Source: Acidobacteriota bacterium (GTDB lineage: Bacteria; Acidobacteriota; Terriglobia; UBA7540). From it: a stretch of 32,053 nt of DNA. Below, in pieces: positions 1 to 14,074 of the stretch. The stretch is taken from contig QHZO01000026.1 in NCBI GenBank assembly GCA_003224695.1, forward strand, positions 31,895 to 63,947, in the 5' to 3' direction. The position numbers and the translations under genes are program-made. How positions within the stretch are numbered: position 1 is the first letter of the stretch; each line of letters begins with the position of its first letter. Under the pieces are notes generated by a model that saw only the letters and a list, made by a program, of their open reading frames with translations, was not told the origin of the DNA and made no database searches.

Positions 1-744
1 GGAGACGCTGGTGCAATAGTTGGTCATCAGGTCGCCGTCGCCGGTGGCGCTGGCCGCGCCGACGTTGTCATTGGCATAGACGCCGCAGCCCACCAGCGGC
101 GAGTCGCCCACGCGGCCGGGAATTTTCCACGCCAGGCCCGATGTCGAGCAACCGGAGACGACGTGCCCCTTGCCGTCGGTTCCGACCATGCCGATCGTGT
201 CGTGGTTCGAGGCGCTGAGCCAGAATGATTCATGGTCGGGCTTGGCCTTCCACTCGAGCCACCGCTTCAGGCTTTCCGGCGTCAGCAGTTGCTCGGGTTT
301 GAACCCCACACCGAGCGCGAAGCGAAACGCTCCCTCGCCGGCCAGCGTGGTGTGCTTGGTTTTTTCCAGGACTTGCCGCGCGACGGAAATCGGATTTTTG
401 ATGCTGTGGAGGCTCGCCACGGAGCCCGCGCGATGCCGCGTGCCGTCCATAATGGCGGCGTCCAGCTCCACCACGCCCTCTTCGTTCGGCAGGCCGCCGT
501 AACCCACGCTCGTCACGTTCGGGTCGCTTTCCGGCACGTTGATGCCTTTTTCGATCGAGTCGAGCAGCGTCCCGCCGGATTTGAAAACTTCCGCGGCGCG
601 CTCGTTCGCGGGCTTGCCGTGCTCCCACGTGGAGAGAAACACGGGACCGGAGCCTTCCGCCGCGTGCGCGTCAACATCCGAGGCAGCCACCGCCGCCGCA
701 CCGGCGACGGTCTTCATAAAAGCGCGACGATTCACGGGTTCCAT
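1..744 (-). CDS. N4-(beta-N-acetylglucosaminyl)-L-asparaginase / isoaspartyl peptidase family (Ntn hydrolase), C-terminus beyond the window edge
   Basis: Open minus-strand frame from ATG at 744 running off the left edge: MEPVNRRAFMKTVAGAAAVAASDVDA...GPVFLSTWEHGKPANERAAEV...LDSIEKGINV..DPNVTSVGYGGLPNEEGVVELDAAIMDG...GMVGTDGKGHVVSGCSTSGLAWKIPGRVGDSPLVGCGVYANDNVGAASATGDGD. Tat-like RRAFMK leader. Missing from the ORF track because it is truncated by the edge. Confidence 0.85.
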   Translation of the reverse strand, partial: MEPVNRRAFMKTVAGAAAVAASDVDAHAAEGSGPVFLSTWEHGKPANERAAEVFKSGGTLLDSIEKGINVPESDPNVTSVGYGGLPNEEGVVELDAAIMDGTRHRAGSVASLHSIKNPISVARQVLEKTKHTTLAGEGAFRFALGVGFKPEQLLTPESLKRWLEWKAKPDHESFWLSASNHDTIGMVGTDGKGHVVSGCSTSGLAWKIPGRVGDSPLVGCGVYANDNVGAASATGDGDLMTNYCTSVS

Positions 745-758
745 GAGACCTCCTTGGA

Positions 759-1108
759 AAATCAGAAATCAGAAGTCAGGAGTCAGAAGCCAGGAGTCAG
801 GAGTCAGAAGCCGGAAGCCAGAAGTCAAGAGTCCAGGGTCGAGAGTCGAAAGTCAGGAGTCAGACTCTTAACATCGAATTGGAGATAACGAATGAGTAAT
901 TTATAACTCATAATTCTGAATTCAAATTGTTTATTCCGGACTCCGGCCACTCTGCACTCCAAACTCCGAACTCCAAACCTCGACCTCCCAACCCCGAACT
1001 GCCAACTCCGCACCTTCAACTCTCAACTTTCAACTTTAAACTCTCAACTCTCTCCGCCCACCGACTCTCGTTTAACGCGGCTTCTGACTTCTGTCTTCTG
1101 CCTTCTAC
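759..1108. repeat. Degenerate heptanucleotide tandem array, about 50 units in continuous 7-bp phase; purine-rich (AAGTCAG/GAGTCAG) on the left, pyrimidine-rich (AACTCCG/CTTCTGA) on the right
   Basis: Parsed by eye: 759 aaatcag aaatcag aagtcag gagtcag aagccag gagtcag gagtcag aagccgg aagccag ... 962 aactccg aactcca aacctcg ... 1018 aactctc aactttc aacttta aactctc aactctc ... 1081 cttctga cttctgt cttctgc cttctac. Confidence 0.85.
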
Positions 1109-2694
1109 TTTGCCTTCCCCCATCCCCCGCCGCCGGGAGACTCAATTCGCAAAATGCTTCCGGCCGGCAAGTCGAATAGCGCTTTCCCGGCCAGCCGCAT
1201 CGTTCGGCCGCCGGGCAGGCGCAGCAGGTTTTTTCCGGCGCGGCCGGGTTTCCCGCCCGCCAGTCCGTAGGGGCGCGTGCGGCGGCGGTCTGAAAGAATA
1301 CTCCCGCGGACCTGGGTAAGGAACTCAAATTCGCGGATGATGCCGTCGCCGCCGCGAAACCGCCCCGCGCCTCCCGAGCCCGGCCGCAGGGAATAGCGGC
1401 GGACGCGCACCGGGTAGGCGGACTCCAGCGCTTCGATCGGGGTGTTGAGAGAATTCGTCATGTGTGTATGGATACCATTCAAACCGCCCGCCGTGGGCCG
1501 CGCGCCCATGCCTCCCGCAATGGTCTCGTAATAAGTAAACGGCCTTGCGGTGCCGGGATGAGTCCCGCCGAAGGAGAGATTGTTCATCGTGCCGGAGCTC
1601 GCGGCGGGAATGCGGCCGGGAAGCGCCTTGGCGAGCGCGCGCAGCAGCACGTCCACGATCCGCTGCGAGGTCTCGACGTTGCCGGCGGCGACGGCGGCGG
1701 GCGGCCGCGCGTTGACCACCGTTCCCTCGGGCGCGCGTACCTCGATCGGGGCCATCAGGCCCGCCGAAGCAGGAACGTCTTCGCCGAGAAGACACCGGAA
1801 AACGTAAAAAACCGCAGAGGCCGTCACGGCGAGCACCGCGTTGACAGGGCCGCCAACGGCCGGCGAGGTTCCTTGAAAGTCCACGAGGGCGCGCCGGCCC
1901 CGGATTTGAATCGTCACGCGCAAACGAATGGGCCCCGAGCCGAAACCGTCGTCATCGAGAGAATCTTCCGCGGTGTAAGTCCCGCGGGGAATCGCTTCGA
2001 GCGCCGTCTCCATCAGCGACGCCGAGTAGCGCTGGAGCGTGTCGAGATAGAACTCGACCTTGGGCAAGCCGTATTTTCCCGCCAGCTCTTCGAGCCGCCG
2101 CTCGCCGAGCCTGCAAGCTGCGACCTGTGCGGTCAGATCGCCCTGACGCTCCTCGGGCGTGCGCACGTTGGCGAGGACCAAGGCGAGCGCGTCGGCTTGG
2201 AGCTTTCCGCCGCGCGCGAGCAGGACGGGCGGGATGCGCAAGCCTTCCTCGAACACCTCGCGGGCGAGACCCATCGAAGCGGGGCTCGCGCCGCCAACGT
2301 CGGCGTGATGCGCGCGATTCGCCACGTAAAACATCGCGCCTTGGCCTTTCGGACGGCCGCTTCGACCGCCGGCTCCCACCGGCATGAGCAGCGTGATGTC
2401 GGGGAGGTGCGTTCCTCCGGCGTAGGGATCGTTCAGCATGGCAATGTCGCCCGCGCGAAGTTCGAGCCGCTCGCGCGCGGCCGCGACGGACATCGGCATC
2501 GAGCCGAGGTGAACGGGCATGTGGTCGCCCATGGCCACGGCACGCCCGCGGCCATCGAAGACGGCGCAGGAATAGTCGCGCCGTTCTTTGATGTTCGCGG
2601 AAAACGCCGACCGCCGAAGCGCCGCGCCCATTTCCTCGGCCACCGAGTGCAGGAGGTTCTTGAAAATTTCGAGTTCCGCGGCGTCAATTTTCAC
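1105..2694 (-). CDS. hyuB: Hydantoinase B / oxoprolinase family protein (HyuB-like)
   Basis: 529 aa; ...EIFKNLLHSVAEEMGAALRRSAFSANIKERRDYSCAVFD...GDHMPVHLGSMPMSV...LNDPYAGGTHLPDITL...AGNVETSQRIVDVLL...GGGGWG. GTG start at 2694 overlaps the hyuA stop by 11 nt. Confidence 0.9.
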   Translation of the reverse strand: MKIDAAELEIFKNLLHSVAEEMGAALRRSAFSANIKERRDYSCAVFDGRGRAVAMGDHMPVHLGSMPMSVAAARERLELRAGDIAMLNDPYAGGTHLPDITLLMPVGAGGRSGRPKGQGAMFYVANRAHHADVGGASPASMGLAREVFEEGLRIPPVLLARGGKLQADALALVLANVRTPEERQGDLTAQVAACRLGERRLEELAGKYGLPKVEFYLDTLQRYSASLMETALEAIPRGTYTAEDSLDDDGFGSGPIRLRVTIQIRGRRALVDFQGTSPAVGGPVNAVLAVTASAVFYVFRCLLGEDVPASAGLMAPIEVRAPEGTVVNARPPAAVAAGNVETSQRIVDVLLRALAKALPGRIPAASSGTMNNLSFGGTHPGTARPFTYYETIAGGMGARPTAGGLNGIHTHMTNSLNTPIEALESAYPVRVRRYSLRPGSGGAGRFRGGDGIIREFEFLTQVRGSILSDRRRTRPYGLAGGKPGRAGKNLLRLPGGRTMRLAGKALFDLPAGSILRIESPGGGGWGKAK

Positions 2695-4722
2695 TGGATT
2701 GCTCCAGGCGCAAGTTCAGATGTGGGTCCAGGCGGCATTGGAAGCCGGGCGGGACGACCGTGGTGGAGCTGTACTCGAGAATGACCGCGGGCCCGGGCAA
2801 CCTTGTTCCCGCTTCGAGCGATTCCCGCAAGTAAAACCGAGTCAAGCGCGGTCCCTTTTCGAACCACACGGATTCGAGGCGCAACGGTTTTGGCAACCGC
2901 GCGCGCAAGTGGAGCCGTGCCGGGCGAAAGCGAGGCTGAGCGACGGGAATCGTCAGCCGCGCGCGTAGCGTGACGACTTCCGTCGGGCGCCCGGCGTGGA
3001 TGGTGCCGTGCGCGCGCTCGTGCTCCATTTCAAATTGCCGCTCGAAATCCGCCGTGAATGGAACCGTCAGCTCGTATGATTGTCCGGAGTAACGGACATC
3101 AATCTGCCGCTCGGAAGCCGCCCTCCGGGCGTCCAAGCCGTCGTGGGCAAGCTGGCGGCGGACCGCCTGTTCGAGCCTTTCGAAGCGGCGCTCGAGCCAC
3201 GTGTAAAATGGCTCGACCTCTGGCGAGTGGCGGCCGGGAACCGGCACGAGGAGCGTTTCGGAAGCATCGCGAACGATGTTGGAGGTGAGAATGCCGAGCG
3301 CCGAAAACGCTCCGGGATTTCGCGGGCCAGGTCCGCCGCGTGGAGCCCCCCCGCGCCGCCAAAGCAAATCAAGGTGTAGTCGCGCGGGTCGCGCCCACGC
3401 TCGACCGAGATAACCCGCAGCGCCCGCTCCATCGTGGCATTGGCAACGCGCACCACGCCCAGGGCGAGCTCGGCGGGATTCTTGAAGACGGCCTTGCCGC
3501 GCCGGCGGGTATGCGCCGCGATGAAGCTTCGGAAACCGTCTTCCGCCGCCCGACGATCAAGGCGGAATTCACCGCCGAGGAAATAATCCGGATCGAGCCG
3601 CCCGAGAATCACGTGTGCGTCGGTCACGGTCGGAAGCGTGCCGCGGCCATAGCAGATCGGTCCGGGGTCTGCGGCAGCGCTTTCCGGGCCCACGCGCAGC
3701 GCGCCGCCCGCGTCCAGGCGCGCCATCGAACCGCCGCCCGCGCCTACGGTGTGAACGTCGAGCACCGGAACCGCCACCGGCAGGCCGGCGACCAGCGTCT
3801 CGCGGGTCGTCGCCGCGGGCAAAAGACAAACGTCGGTGGATGTGCCGCCCATGTCGAAACTGATGGCCCGCGCGACCCCGAGCCGCGCGCCAAGCTCCGT
3901 CGCGGCCATCACCCCGCCGGCAGGCCCGGAAAGGATGGTGCGCACAGGCTCCCGCGCGGCGCGCGCCGACGTGGTGATGCCGCCGCTCGATTGCATCACC
4001 AACAAACGCGTGCCACTTGACCCGCGAGAGCGGCCGGAAATTCGGATTGCGCTTTGGGGCGCGCTGAATATTTTCCCCAATCCCTCGAAGTAGGCCTTAA
4101 GGCGCGGCGCGAGATACGCGTTGATGGACACCGTTGAAAGCCGCTCGTATTCACGAAATTCGGGAAGGATTTCGCTCGAAACCGAAACCGGCAGCCCCAG
4201 CCGCCGGACGGCGCGGGCGGCGGTCTGCTCGTTCGAGGCGTTCGCGAACGAGAAAAGAAAGCAGATGGCCAAAGACTCGACGCGGGCGCGGCGGACGCGC
4301 CGGACCAGCTCCGCAATCTCTCGCGAGCTGGGCCGCCGAAGGACCTTTCCGCCCGCGCCGATCCTTTCCGCAATTCCCCAGCGCCGCTCGCGCGGGACAA
4401 GCGGAGGCTCGACGCGCACGTTGAAATCGTACAGTTTCGGCCGGTTTTGCCTGGCGATTTCGATCAGATCCTCGAAGCCGGCGGTGGTGACCAGGCCCAC
4501 GCGCGCGCCGCGCCGCTCGAGCAGACTGTTGGTTCCGACGGTCGTGCCGTGGACAATTTCAAGCTTTCGGGCCTCCGCGCCGCCGCGCAGCAGCCGGATT
4601 CCTTCCACGATGCCGCGGCCCGGCTCTTCGGGCGTCGAAAAGACTTTGGCGATGCGGACTTCGCCGTCTTCTATGACCACGCAGTCCGTAAACGTCCCGC
4701 CGGTATCCACGCCGATGCGCAT
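2684..4722 (-). pseudogene. hyuA: Hydantoinase A / oxoprolinase (HyuA-like), split by internal deletion plus frameshift near 3314-3321
   Basis: N-terminal frame (3067-4722): MRIGVDTGGTFTDCVV...GGTSTDVCLL...LICFGGAGGLHAADLAREI. C-terminal frame (2684-3367) resumes at NPGAFSALGILTSNIVRDASETLL...VILEYSSTTVVPPGF. Confidence 0.85.
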
Positions 4723-8650: not shown

Positions 8651-8733
8651 ACGCCAAGCTGCACCACTTCGCGGCAAAACATCTCGGCTGGCGAGCCCGC
8701 CGGGGAACTGATAGACTTCGCTCGGGAATTGCA

Positions 8734-9618
8734 ATGCGCGCTTCGGCTCCAACTCGTTCGTCGAGTTCTCCCGGCAAACTCTTCGTCGTCGGCACTCCCA
8801 TCGGCAATCTCGAAGACATCACCTTTCGAGCCTTGCGGACGCTTAAGGAGGCCGACCTGATCGCCTGCGAGGACACGCGCCGCACACAATTGCTCCTCAA
8901 CCGCTATACCATTCGAACGCCCACGGTGAGTTACCACGAACACAATGAAATGACGCGCGCGCCGGAACTGATCTTGCAACTGGAAGAAGGCTCGCACGTG
9001 GCGTTGGTTTCGGACGCCGGCATGCCCGGCATTTCCGACCCGGGCTATCGGCTTGTCCACCTGGCCGTCCGGCACGGCATTCGGGTGATTCCCGTGCCGG
9101 GCGTCACGGCCTTCGTCGCCGCGCTTTCGGCGGCGGGGTCGCCCGTGGACGAATTCCATTTTGTCGGCTTCCTTCCCGCGAAGCGCGTCGGAAGGCGGAA
9201 GGCGCTCGAAGGTTTGAAAAAGGGGACCGAGACCTTGATCTTTTACGAGGCGCCCCACCGCTTGCTCGAGATGCTCAAAGACGCCCAATCCATCCTGGGC
9301 GACCGGCCGGTGGTGATCGCGCGGGAAATCACCAAGGTTTATGAGGAATTTTTGCGAGGCAGCCTGAGCGAGGTTCTGACAACTCTGAAATCGAAACCCT
9401 TGAAGGGCGAACTCACGGTGCTGGTCGGGCCGCCGACGGGCGAGGGAAAGCCCCGCGCACGAGAGACGGGCGCGAGTATCTCGGAAGAGATGGCGCGGCT
9501 GGCCGCCAAGCAGGGACTCGACGAGCGCGCGGCCCTCAAAGTCCTGGCGCGCGCCCGCGGCATATCCAAAAGCGAAGCCTACCGCCAATGGCAGGCTGAG
9601 AAGACCCTCAGCCGCTGA
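8734..9618 (+). CDS. rsmI: 16S rRNA (cytidine(1402)-2'-O)-methyltransferase RsmI
   Basis: 294 aa; GKLFVVGTPIGNLEDITFRALRTLKEADLIACEDTRRTQLLLNRY...VALVSDAGMPGISDPGYRLV...PGVTAFVAALSAAG...FVGFLP. Confidence 0.95.
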   Translation: MRASAPTRSSSSPGKLFVVGTPIGNLEDITFRALRTLKEADLIACEDTRRTQLLLNRYTIRTPTVSYHEHNEMTRAPELILQLEEGSHVALVSDAGMPGISDPGYRLVHLAVRHGIRVIPVPGVTAFVAALSAAGSPVDEFHFVGFLPAKRVGRRKALEGLKKGTETLIFYEAPHRLLEMLKDAQSILGDRPVVIAREITKVYEEFLRGSLSEVLTTLKSKPLKGELTVLVGPPTGEGKPRARETGASISEEMARLAAKQGLDERAALKVLARARGISKSEAYRQWQAEKTLSR

Positions 9619-10040: not shown

Positions 10041-11086
10041 GGTGGCGCGGGCGTTTGCGGGGAGGGCGCCGAAGCCTCCAAGCCGGCGAAGAACTCATCC
10101 ACCAGCGTCAGCACTTCGCGAGTTTCTCGGGCGCTTTGAACGCTCCGGCGCAATTCCGCGCCGTTCCGCACGCCATGCGTGAACCAGCTCGCAAACTGTT
10201 TCATCTTGCCAATCGCTCCGGGAATTTCCTCTTCCGCGAGCATTTGATAGTAGGTGCGAATCAGTTGGTAGCGGTCGGCGTCGGAGGGTTCCCGGTACGC
10301 TCCGGTCGCGAAGTAGTCGGCCATTTGCCGGAAAATCCAGGGATTGGTGGGCGCGGCGCGGCCAATCATCACGGCGTCGCAATGCGTCTCGTCGAAAAGC
10401 GCCCGCGCGGCTTCCGGCTGGTGAACGTCGCCATTGCCGATAACCGGGATGCGCACGCTCTGTTTGATTTCGCGGATGATTTCCCAGCGCGCGCGGCCAC
10501 TGAAGCCTTGCAGGCGAGTGCGCGGATGGATGGCAAGGGCTTCCACGCCCGACTCCTCGGCGAGCTTTGCAACGGGCACTGCCACAATCTCCTCGTCGCT
10601 CCAGCCGGAACGGATTTTGACGGTGAAGGGAATCGTGACCGCGGCGCGGATTTCGCGAAAGATTCGCGCGAGCAACGGGAAGTCGCGCAGCAAGCCTGAG
10701 CCGCCGCACTTCACAACCTTTTTGGCCGGGCAGCCGAGATTCAGATCAATCAGGTCGCAGCCCAGGTCTTCGATCATCCGCGCGGCTTCGGCGAGGTGGG
10801 CCGGGTCGGCGCCGAAAATCTGGGCTGAAATCGGCCGCTCTTCTTCGGTGTAGTAGAGAAAGCGTTCGGACTTCAGGTTCCGCCGGAGCATGCCTTCGCT
10901 CGAAACGAATTCGGTCATGATCAGGCCGCAGCCGCCCAGACGCTTGATGAAGCGGCGAAAGACGGTGTCCGTAATGCCCGCCATCGGCGCCAGGATGTGC
11001 GCCGGGCGGATGGGAACGTTTCGAATCGTCAACTCTTCGAAGGGCATGCTGGGGGTATTCTGGCAGGAAAGGGGCGGCCTTGGCAA
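10037..11086 (-). CDS. dusB: tRNA-dihydrouridine synthase (DusB family)
   Basis: 349 aa; ILAPMAGITDTVFRRFIKRLGG...MTEFVSSEGM...QIFGADPAHLAEAARMIE...IDLNLGCPAKKVVKCGGSGLLRD...VIGNGDV...MIGRAAPTNPWIF. Start may be the internal ATG near 11047. Confidence 0.93.
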   Translation of the reverse strand: MPRPPLSCQNTPSMPFEELTIRNVPIRPAHILAPMAGITDTVFRRFIKRLGGCGLIMTEFVSSEGMLRRNLKSERFLYYTEEERPISAQIFGADPAHLAEAARMIEDLGCDLIDLNLGCPAKKVVKCGGSGLLRDFPLLARIFREIRAAVTIPFTVKIRSGWSDEEIVAVPVAKLAEESGVEALAIHPRTRLQGFSGRARWEIIREIKQSVRIPVIGNGDVHQPEAARALFDETHCDAVMIGRAAPTNPWIFRQMADYFATGAYREPSDADRYQLIRTYYQMLAEEEIPGAIGKMKQFASWFTHGVRNGAELRRSVQSARETREVLTLVDEFFAGLEASAPSPQTPAPP

Positions 11087-11144: not shown

Positions 11145-11599
11145 GGGTGCTGGGAAAAAACCGCTTTCGCGTCAGTGATGGCAAATCGCATTTGCCCCTC
11201 GGCAACCAACTCACCGCCGACGCTCGCTCTGCCGGCGAGCTCGCCGAGCGATTCTTTCAGCTTCAACACTTCGGCCGCGAGTTCCAGAGTGTCTCCCACG
11301 CGGACGAGCTTCAACATTCGGGCCGAGGGGATTTGAAGGATGACAGCGATTTTGTCCCGCGTGTTTGGCCGTTCGAGCACCAGAATAGCGCCGAGCTGCG
11401 TCACCATTTCGATAAGCAGCGTCGTGGGGACCATCGGTTCGCCCGGGGAGCAACCGAAGGTCCCGGCTTCATTGGCGGTAATGGTCTTGATGCCCGCGAT
11501 GCTCCTTCCGGGAATGAAATCGGTGACGCGGTCCACAAGCAAAAAAGGATAGCGGTGGGGAATCAGGCGTTGGATTTCAGACTGGAACATTTCGCTCAT
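11141..11599 (-). CDS. FabZ-like hotdog-fold 3-hydroxyacyl-ACP dehydratase family protein (non-canonical HFPG motif)
   Basis: 152 aa; IQRLIPHRYPFLLVDRVTDFIPGRSIAGIKTITANEAGTFGCSPGEPMVPTTLLIEMVTQLGA...RVGDTLELAAEVLKLKE. Confidence 0.75.
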   Translation of the reverse strand: MSEMFQSEIQRLIPHRYPFLLVDRVTDFIPGRSIAGIKTITANEAGTFGCSPGEPMVPTTLLIEMVTQLGAILVLERPNTRDKIAVILQIPSARMLKLVRVGDTLELAAEVLKLKESLGELAGRASVGGELVAEGQMRFAITDAKAVFSQHP

Positions 11600-12953: not shown

Positions 12954-14074
12954 TGGCCGGCTTTGGTGGATCCGGTTCCCGCGAAGGGCTCCGCGCCGGT
13001 GTCAATGAAACCCGAGGCGATATAGATGTAACTCTCTTTGCGGAGCTGCTGGAGGTACTTGCGCAGAGCCGGCTGCATTTTCTGGTCGTAGAGAGTTTCT
13101 TCCACTTGCTCTTCCACTTCATCAAACTTGGCCGGGCCGGCGGTACGGTGCTCGAGCACTTTCAGGATCAAGTAGCCCTGCTTGGTTGGAATGACGCCAG
13201 TTGTTTCCCCTGCGTCTACGTTGGCAAGGGCCTGGGCGATGACGGGATTCATTGTGCCTTGTTCCATAAAGCCGATGTCGCCAGCCGCGGGATTGGCGGT
13301 GTCGTCGGAATATTTTTTCACCACGTCTTCCCACCGGTCGCCGGCCTTAATCTCCGCCAGGGCGTCGTTCGCGCGCTTCTCGGCGTCCGCGGGGTGTTTC
13401 TCATTCGAAATCAAAATCTCAGCCAGATGAACTCCGGGGGCGTGGGCGAACTGGTCTTTATGCTGCTCGAAATATATCCGCGCGTCTTCGCGCGACACGA
13501 TAACGGTGCGCCCCACTTCGCGCCCGATCACTTCCCTCATCAGCAACTGGCGTTTGATGTTGTCCGCGAAGTCTTCCCAGATGAGTCCTTGTTTTTCGAC
13601 CTCGGTTTGAAGGTCCTCCTGCGTCGCGAAGCCGTAGCCCTTGCGCATCTCGTCCAGCCTTTTGACCACGTCAGTGTCCACGTTAATGTCGAGGTCCTTT
13701 GCCTTTTGCACCATCAGGTCCTGGTCAATCAAATCCCGAAGGAGGTTACGGCTCTGTTCCCGCACCTGCTTTTCGAGTTCGTCCCCGGAGGACTTTTGCG
13801 AAAGCTCTGCGCGAAGCTTTTCAAGCTCGCGGTCATATTGCCGCTGGGTGACGATGTTGCCGTTGACGCGGGCAACGATCCTTTCCACCACCTCGCGTCG
13901 CGCCCCCGCCGGCGCTGCCGCCAGCATCATCCCCGCCAGGGCCAGAGCCAGAGCCAGCCCGCGGGCCGAATTCCCGACTTGCCACAAATCCTTGCTCAAG
14001 AAGAGATCTCCCTCCGAGCGACCCATAATTTGGACGCGGCTCGTCAGCCGACGGGCTGCCCAGCGATTTTCCAT
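12950..14074 (-). CDS. SurA/PpiC-type periplasmic peptidyl-prolyl isomerase
   Basis: Signal-like GLALALALAGMMLAAAPAGA; VVERIVARVNGNIVTQRQYDRELEKLR...; parvulin region VHLAEILISNEKHPADAEKRANDALAEIKAGDRWEDVVKKYSDDTANPAAGDIGFMEQGTMNPVIAQAL. Start chosen 8 nt downstream of the mfd stop. Confidence 0.88.
   Translation of the reverse strand: MENRWAARRLTSRVQIMGRSEGDLFLSKDLWQVGNSARGLALALALAGMMLAAAPAGARREVVERIVARVNGNIVTQRQYDRELEKLRAELSQKSSGDELEKQVREQSRNLLRDLIDQDLMVQKAKDLDINVDTDVVKRLDEMRKGYGFATQEDLQTEVEKQGLIWEDFADNIKRQLLMREVIGREVGRTVIVSREDARIYFEQHKDQFAHAPGVHLAEILISNEKHPADAEKRANDALAEIKAGDRWEDVVKKYSDDTANPAAGDIGFMEQGTMNPVIAQALANVDAGETTGVIPTKQGYLILKVLEHRTAGPAKFDEVEEQVEETLYDQKMQPALRKYLQQLRKESYIYIASGFIDTGAEPFAGTGSTKAGQ

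Follow-up and report, generated by a model that had tools for sequence, protein, structure and literature searches.

Heptamer repeats have been published for Xanthomonas, for cyanobacteria and for Beggiatoaceae (PMC4692102, PMC4679880). The GGGAATC repeats of X. campestris and X. axonopodis are degenerate, about 90% intergenic, located near the end of the upstream ORF, rare between divergent ORFs and able to form G-quadruplexes; they mostly lie between the same genes in the two species, with length and sequence varying, and convergent inverted pairs account for 70/186 and 75/183 in two genomes (PMC4692102). The cyanobacterial heptanucleotide repeats (STRR) are represented by GGGGA(T/C)T in Nostoc (PMC4692102), while the TAACTGA repeats, known from Beggiatoaceae, some Cyanobacteria and Bacteroidetes, consist of one fixed word in direct repeats upstream of start codons, with only one indirect repeat in the Maribeggiatoa genome (PMC4679880).

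The array described here occupies positions 759-1108 of the 32,053-nucleotide stretch of DNA that was analysed (the window). Its units stand head to tail with a period of 7 and its like are dispersed between genes, as in heptameric simple sequence repeats of the LSSR/STRR kind, and it shares the 7-bp tandem units and the dispersed intergenic copies with the cyanobacterial STRRs. The original prediction had compared it to the latter; the kind of repeat was correctly named, but the host is an uncultured Acidobacteriota lineage and no cyanobacterium. The source assembly comprises 4.62 Mb in 380 contigs, and the hyuB gene that adjoins the array has nearly all of its closest relatives in Acidobacteriota MAGs, the named ones carrying the labels gp13, Terriglobia and Acidiferrales. 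Besides the host, the word (TCAGAAG/TCAGGAG) and the predominance of inverted pairs separate these arrays from STRRs proper. With TAACTGA they have in common that they are many-copy intergenic heptamers, whereas TAACTGA is a single fixed word in direct orientation. Like GGGAATC in Xanthomonas, they form convergent inverted pairs behind the upstream ORF and are few in divergent gaps; however, Xanthomonas has one word family with the unit GGGANTN, which does not describe the more than 60 words found here in one genome, and its repeats have a G-quadruplex potential that the window array lacks.

In the window, heptamers fill the entire gap between the stop codon of hyuB (1105-2694, minus strand; hydantoinase B/oxoprolinase family, Pfam PF02538, E 1e-204) and the Shine-Dalgarno-like AAGGAGG (749-755, minus strand), which sits immediately between the array and the following, co-oriented gene, an asparaginase/isoaspartyl peptidase family gene that runs off the window (1-744, minus strand; PF01112, E 1e-60). 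As predicted, the hyuB stop codon, TAG on the minus strand and CTA at 1105-1107, falls within the last heptamer. The left arm (759-863) holds about 15 units of AAGTCAG, GAGTCAG and AAGCCAG, purine-rich on the plus strand (lag-7 segment score 56, 77/98 matches). It is followed by a junction (864-896, unstranded) where the register is lost and the anchor is shifted by -1, and by an A/T-rich centre (897-948, unstranded, TAATTTATAACTCATAATTCTGAATTC...) that is weakly 7-periodic, with an anchor phase unlike that of either arm. The right inner array (949-1052, minus strand) reads AACTCCG, AACTCTC and AACTTTC (CGGAGTT/GAGAGTT on the transcript strand) and is partly complementary to the left-arm units GAGTCGA and GAAAGTC. 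Beyond a degenerate, unstranded stretch (1053-1080), the right outer array of CTTCTGA (1081-1115; TCAGAAG on the minus strand) pairs with the outer part of the left arm (ungapped score 22 for 756-791 against 1079-1114), which bears out the proposed complementarity of the two ends. On the far side of hyuB, hyuA appears to be split (2684-4722), through a frameshift or an assembly error: its N-terminal and central hydantoinase A domains are encoded by one ORF (3067-4722) and its C-terminal domain (PF19278) by a different frame (2684-3367).

The periodicity of the array is genuine. Over 759-1108, the lag-7 self-match reaches 0.624, whereas dinucleotide shuffles give 0.256±0.025 (z 14.8); the values at lags 14 and 21 are high too, and those at every other lag in the autocorrelation are far lower. 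The middle part, on which the original prediction had let its single array depend, is still 7-periodic (868-945: 0.493 versus 0.278 in shuffles, z 4.2, 0/1000 shuffles as high; 890-932: z 3.3), and we are thus not dealing merely with two unrelated arrays. The register, however, is neither exact nor unbroken as had been claimed. The segment finder cuts the array at 864-896 (9/26 lag-7 matches), a second break lies at 1053-1087 (10/28), both near background, and although 17 of the 21 occurrences of the A[GC]TC anchor share one phase, its spacing is off at 858->864 (6 nt), 920->926 (6 nt) and 940->949 (9 nt). The array thus contains small indels that compensate one another, the net shift being zero. 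A constant register between arms was considered and rejected as a rule, since the arm-to-arm phase offsets of other inverted arrays in the genome vary (0, 0, 0, 1, 1, 1, 3, 5 and 5).

On the transcript strand, the window gap folds, as anticipated, into a single long but imperfect hairpin (-144.3 kcal/mol, z -5.6, 0/100 shuffles as good), whose 3' arm is pyrimidine-rich throughout. The orthologous gap of a congener yields two stacked nested hairpins in two tiers (-71.1 kcal/mol, z -5.6), and the hyuB gap transcript of a third genome (L031) also folds with a z of -2.7. No intrinsic terminator site, that is, a GC-rich stem followed by a U run, is present within the window array, and an Rfam search of the array gave no match.

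The hyuB-gap array is an ordinary member of a genome-wide class. An 810-kb sample of the genome, partly picked for arrays, contains 97 lag-7 segments compared with 0-3 at any lag not divisible by 7; the lag-7 segments group into 67-80 arrays depending on the threshold. In contigs taken arbitrarily, which we report apart, there are 29 arrays per Mb for this genome and 35 for the congener, densities that would amount to well over a hundred arrays in each complete genome. The sampled genome uses no fewer than 62 different exact words, the commonest being AAGTCAG, AAGTGGC, ACTCCTG, AAATCAG and AATCCTG. The polarity switch had been described as less usual; in fact about every second array is a pair of inverted arms of a single word, in this genome (inverted-repeat score ≥15 in 32/67; 0/67 in shuffles) and in the congener, and some arrays nest a second word inside (for example L150 5074-5241 and L147 6283-6385). 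The purine-rich arm comes first in 29/34 inverted arrays here and in 21/23 in the congener (50/57 pooled), a rule that the window array obeys, so that its polarity switch is the normal form. Two further regularities were sought. Mirror-image unit order in the two arms, which would be a trace of fold-back copying, is not supported in general (combined p 0.46, 2/32 arrays significant), and a preference for the purine-rich word on the mRNA strand of non-inverted arrays (15/20 here, 4/9 in the congener) was dropped. As a separate observation, an A-N-T core is contained in 36 of the 62 distinct words (25.0±3.2 in letter-shuffled words), in 18 of 27 words from relatives (9.8±1.9) and likewise in the published words GGGGATT, GGGAATC, TAACTGA and GTGATTA; it is a lead only, because the words are not independent.

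The place of the arrays relative to genes was judged from rough gene calls made with a purpose-written dicodon finder; 72-78% of array bases fall outside these calls. The arrays occupy 79 of the 671 gaps with at least one 3' end and 3 of the 131 divergent ones (Fisher p 4e-4), starting a median of 5-6.5 nt after the stop codon and ending about 14-20 nt before the next start codon. In three relatives the array starts at or inside the last hyuB codons (L031 5587-5690, L033 5605-5760, L103 5569-5663), and there it encodes the C-terminal tail and the stop codon. L103, a contig of the cultured Acidobacteriota strain AB60, has several such arrays. Only 9/79 hyuB 3' ends have any lag-7 array.

Comparison with related genomes indicates what is kept at these sites. 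In the hyuB-asparaginase gap, the outer word TCAGAAR is common to the window, the congener (L033) and the third genome (L031), whose arrays are likewise inverted, with inner parts and lengths that differ. The same gene pair is separated by a short gap without an array in L032 and L034, so the array is not essential, and in other relatives the arrays behind hyuB are of AATTACG, GCAGTAG or GGGAACA. Across 88 scorable orthologous gaps of the two congeneric genomes, on contigs partly picked for arrays, both genomes have an array in 12, only one in 15 and neither in 61 (OR 13.6, p 1.3e-5); when the palindrome threshold is lenient, the association between the two genomes taken by itself is not significant (p 0.09). 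In about nine of the orthologous gaps, strong palindromes are present in both genomes and their words are unrelated; these include L158:7815-7874, 8662-8905, 10774-10871, 11329-11421 and 13015-13161, as well as L169:7769-7888 and L167:3860-4355. This implies that both arms changed together, and we regard this apparent both-arm word change, as read from the sequences of two genomes, as the most notable result, one that lies outside the hyuB locus.

At two other gaps (L158:10154-10217 and L158:2471-2565), a heptamer palindrome in one of the genomes corresponds, in the other, to a palindrome that starts GTAGGGGC and is not made of heptamers. The latter represents a second family of palindromic repeats, of non-heptamer type, with GTAGGGGC at its start and GCCCCTAC at its end (L158 10154-10217 and 11986-12086, L225 10472-10515, L150 3254-3330), which occupies the same type of gap and replaces heptamer palindromes at orthologous sites. 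L158 and L150 (contigs C133 and C59 of this genome) carry a phage head cluster (portal, scaffolding, maturation protease and major head protein), nearly all of whose gaps hold a palindromic array. Synteny extends to the congener, where the DNA is about 70-84% identical, and the cluster seems to be an old one of phage origin that has been inherited vertically. Furthermore, 94 viral-contig stretches in IMG/VR (L245-L324) have three consecutive TCAGRAG units, L260 nine times. Either the phages themselves may bear arrays of this type or the collection may include host DNA.

How could such arrays arise and what could they do? Our preferred reading, to which we give slightly less than even confidence, is that slippage-grown heptamer arrays form intercistronic hairpins in the mRNA, with a putative function. 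By gaining and losing 7-bp units through local duplication and deletion, arrays would grow and drift. Identity between units, 0.72 for adjacent ones, declines to 0.39 at a distance of eight units, as expected if arrays lengthen through local duplication. In the transcript from hyuB to the asparaginase gene, the array would fold into one long imperfect hairpin reaching from the stop codon to the next ribosome-binding site, and this could act as an intercistronic structural element in 3'-end protection, processing or partial attenuation. Evolution would keep the palindrome at its place and leave the word free to change. If the palindrome is kept and the word is not, the two arms must be renewed together, either through selection for pairing or because one arm is copied from the other.

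A purely neutral origin is almost as likely, and we hold it to be a serious, if tentative, possibility. The arrays would then be a by-product of polymerase slippage at 7-bp units with occasional strand switching, without function, and would persist only where they are harmless, that is, in the gaps behind stop codons. The decay of unit identity with distance speaks for this as well, as do the relatives that lack an array at the same gap, and the avoidance of divergent gaps could be mere promoter avoidance. In addition, period 7 is the commonest among long bacterial simple sequence repeats and an origin in polymerase contacts has been proposed (Mrazek 2007, as presented in PMC4679880 and PMC4692102). 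However, slippage alone would not keep the arms complementary while both change their word, nor does random strand switching predict the purine-first sign.

The other explanations fare considerably worse. REP, BIME and REPIN elements are intergenic palindromes, often situated behind stop codons, that form hairpins in mRNA. A mobile palindromic element of the REPIN or MITE type, moved by a Y1 (RAYT-like) transposase, would account for arrays that are dispersed, intergenic and palindromic; Y1_Tnp genes are found in 52/61 relatives, and over all genomes they correlate weakly with array counts (rho 0.40). Yet the repeats here are tandem with period 7 and have no conserved palindrome unit, no conserved ends and no fixed length, and one genome holds more than 60 words. 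Moreover, the link to a RAYT is not clear-cut, as each of the two array-rich genomes, this one included, has only 2 Y1_Tnp genes, and within the family the correlation is not significant (rho 0.24, p 0.15). We therefore consider this origin improbable. Equally improbable would be sites for a DNA- or RNA-binding protein reading every 7 nt, or a Rho-loading function of the pyrimidine-rich arm. The composition of the 3' arm in the transcript is in line with the latter, and TAACTGA repeats have been argued to act post-transcriptionally in Beggiatoaceae (PMC4679880), but a sequence-specific reader would not tolerate a word that differs between orthologous gaps and even within one array, and the enrichment among words is limited to the loose A-N-T core. 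Finally, G-quadruplex formation as in Xanthomonas and Nostoc, which words carrying GGG such as AGGGACT might suggest, can practically be discarded, as a G4 motif occurs in only 10/67 arrays of the genome and is absent from that of the window.

Returning to the hairpin reading, one could go further and propose that the array hairpins are a maintained feature: their place and two-arm architecture would be passed on, and the word would be rewritten simultaneously in the two arms. We consider this stronger version rather doubtful. If it were true, it would point to a dedicated or recurrent array-writing process, such as fold-back templating between the arms, or alternatively to strong selection that favours pairing whatever the sequence.

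Heptamer arrays as such are already on record for Xanthomonas, and so are their location between genes, their arrangement in inverted pairs and their scarcity in divergent gaps (PMC4692102). As far as the literature shows, what is new here is the large repertoire of words in one genome, the nesting of word within word in the arms, the purine-first sign and, at orthologous gaps, the apparent switch of both arms to another word. The nesting and this switch set the arrays apart from those of Xanthomonas. The preference of long simple repeats in bacteria for units of 7, and whether these arrays do anything at all, have been in question since 2007. This lineage offers material for separating mutation from selection, by counting arm co-changes on a tree, and comparisons of intergenic regions among Acidobacteriota will look unrelated even though the structure is shared.
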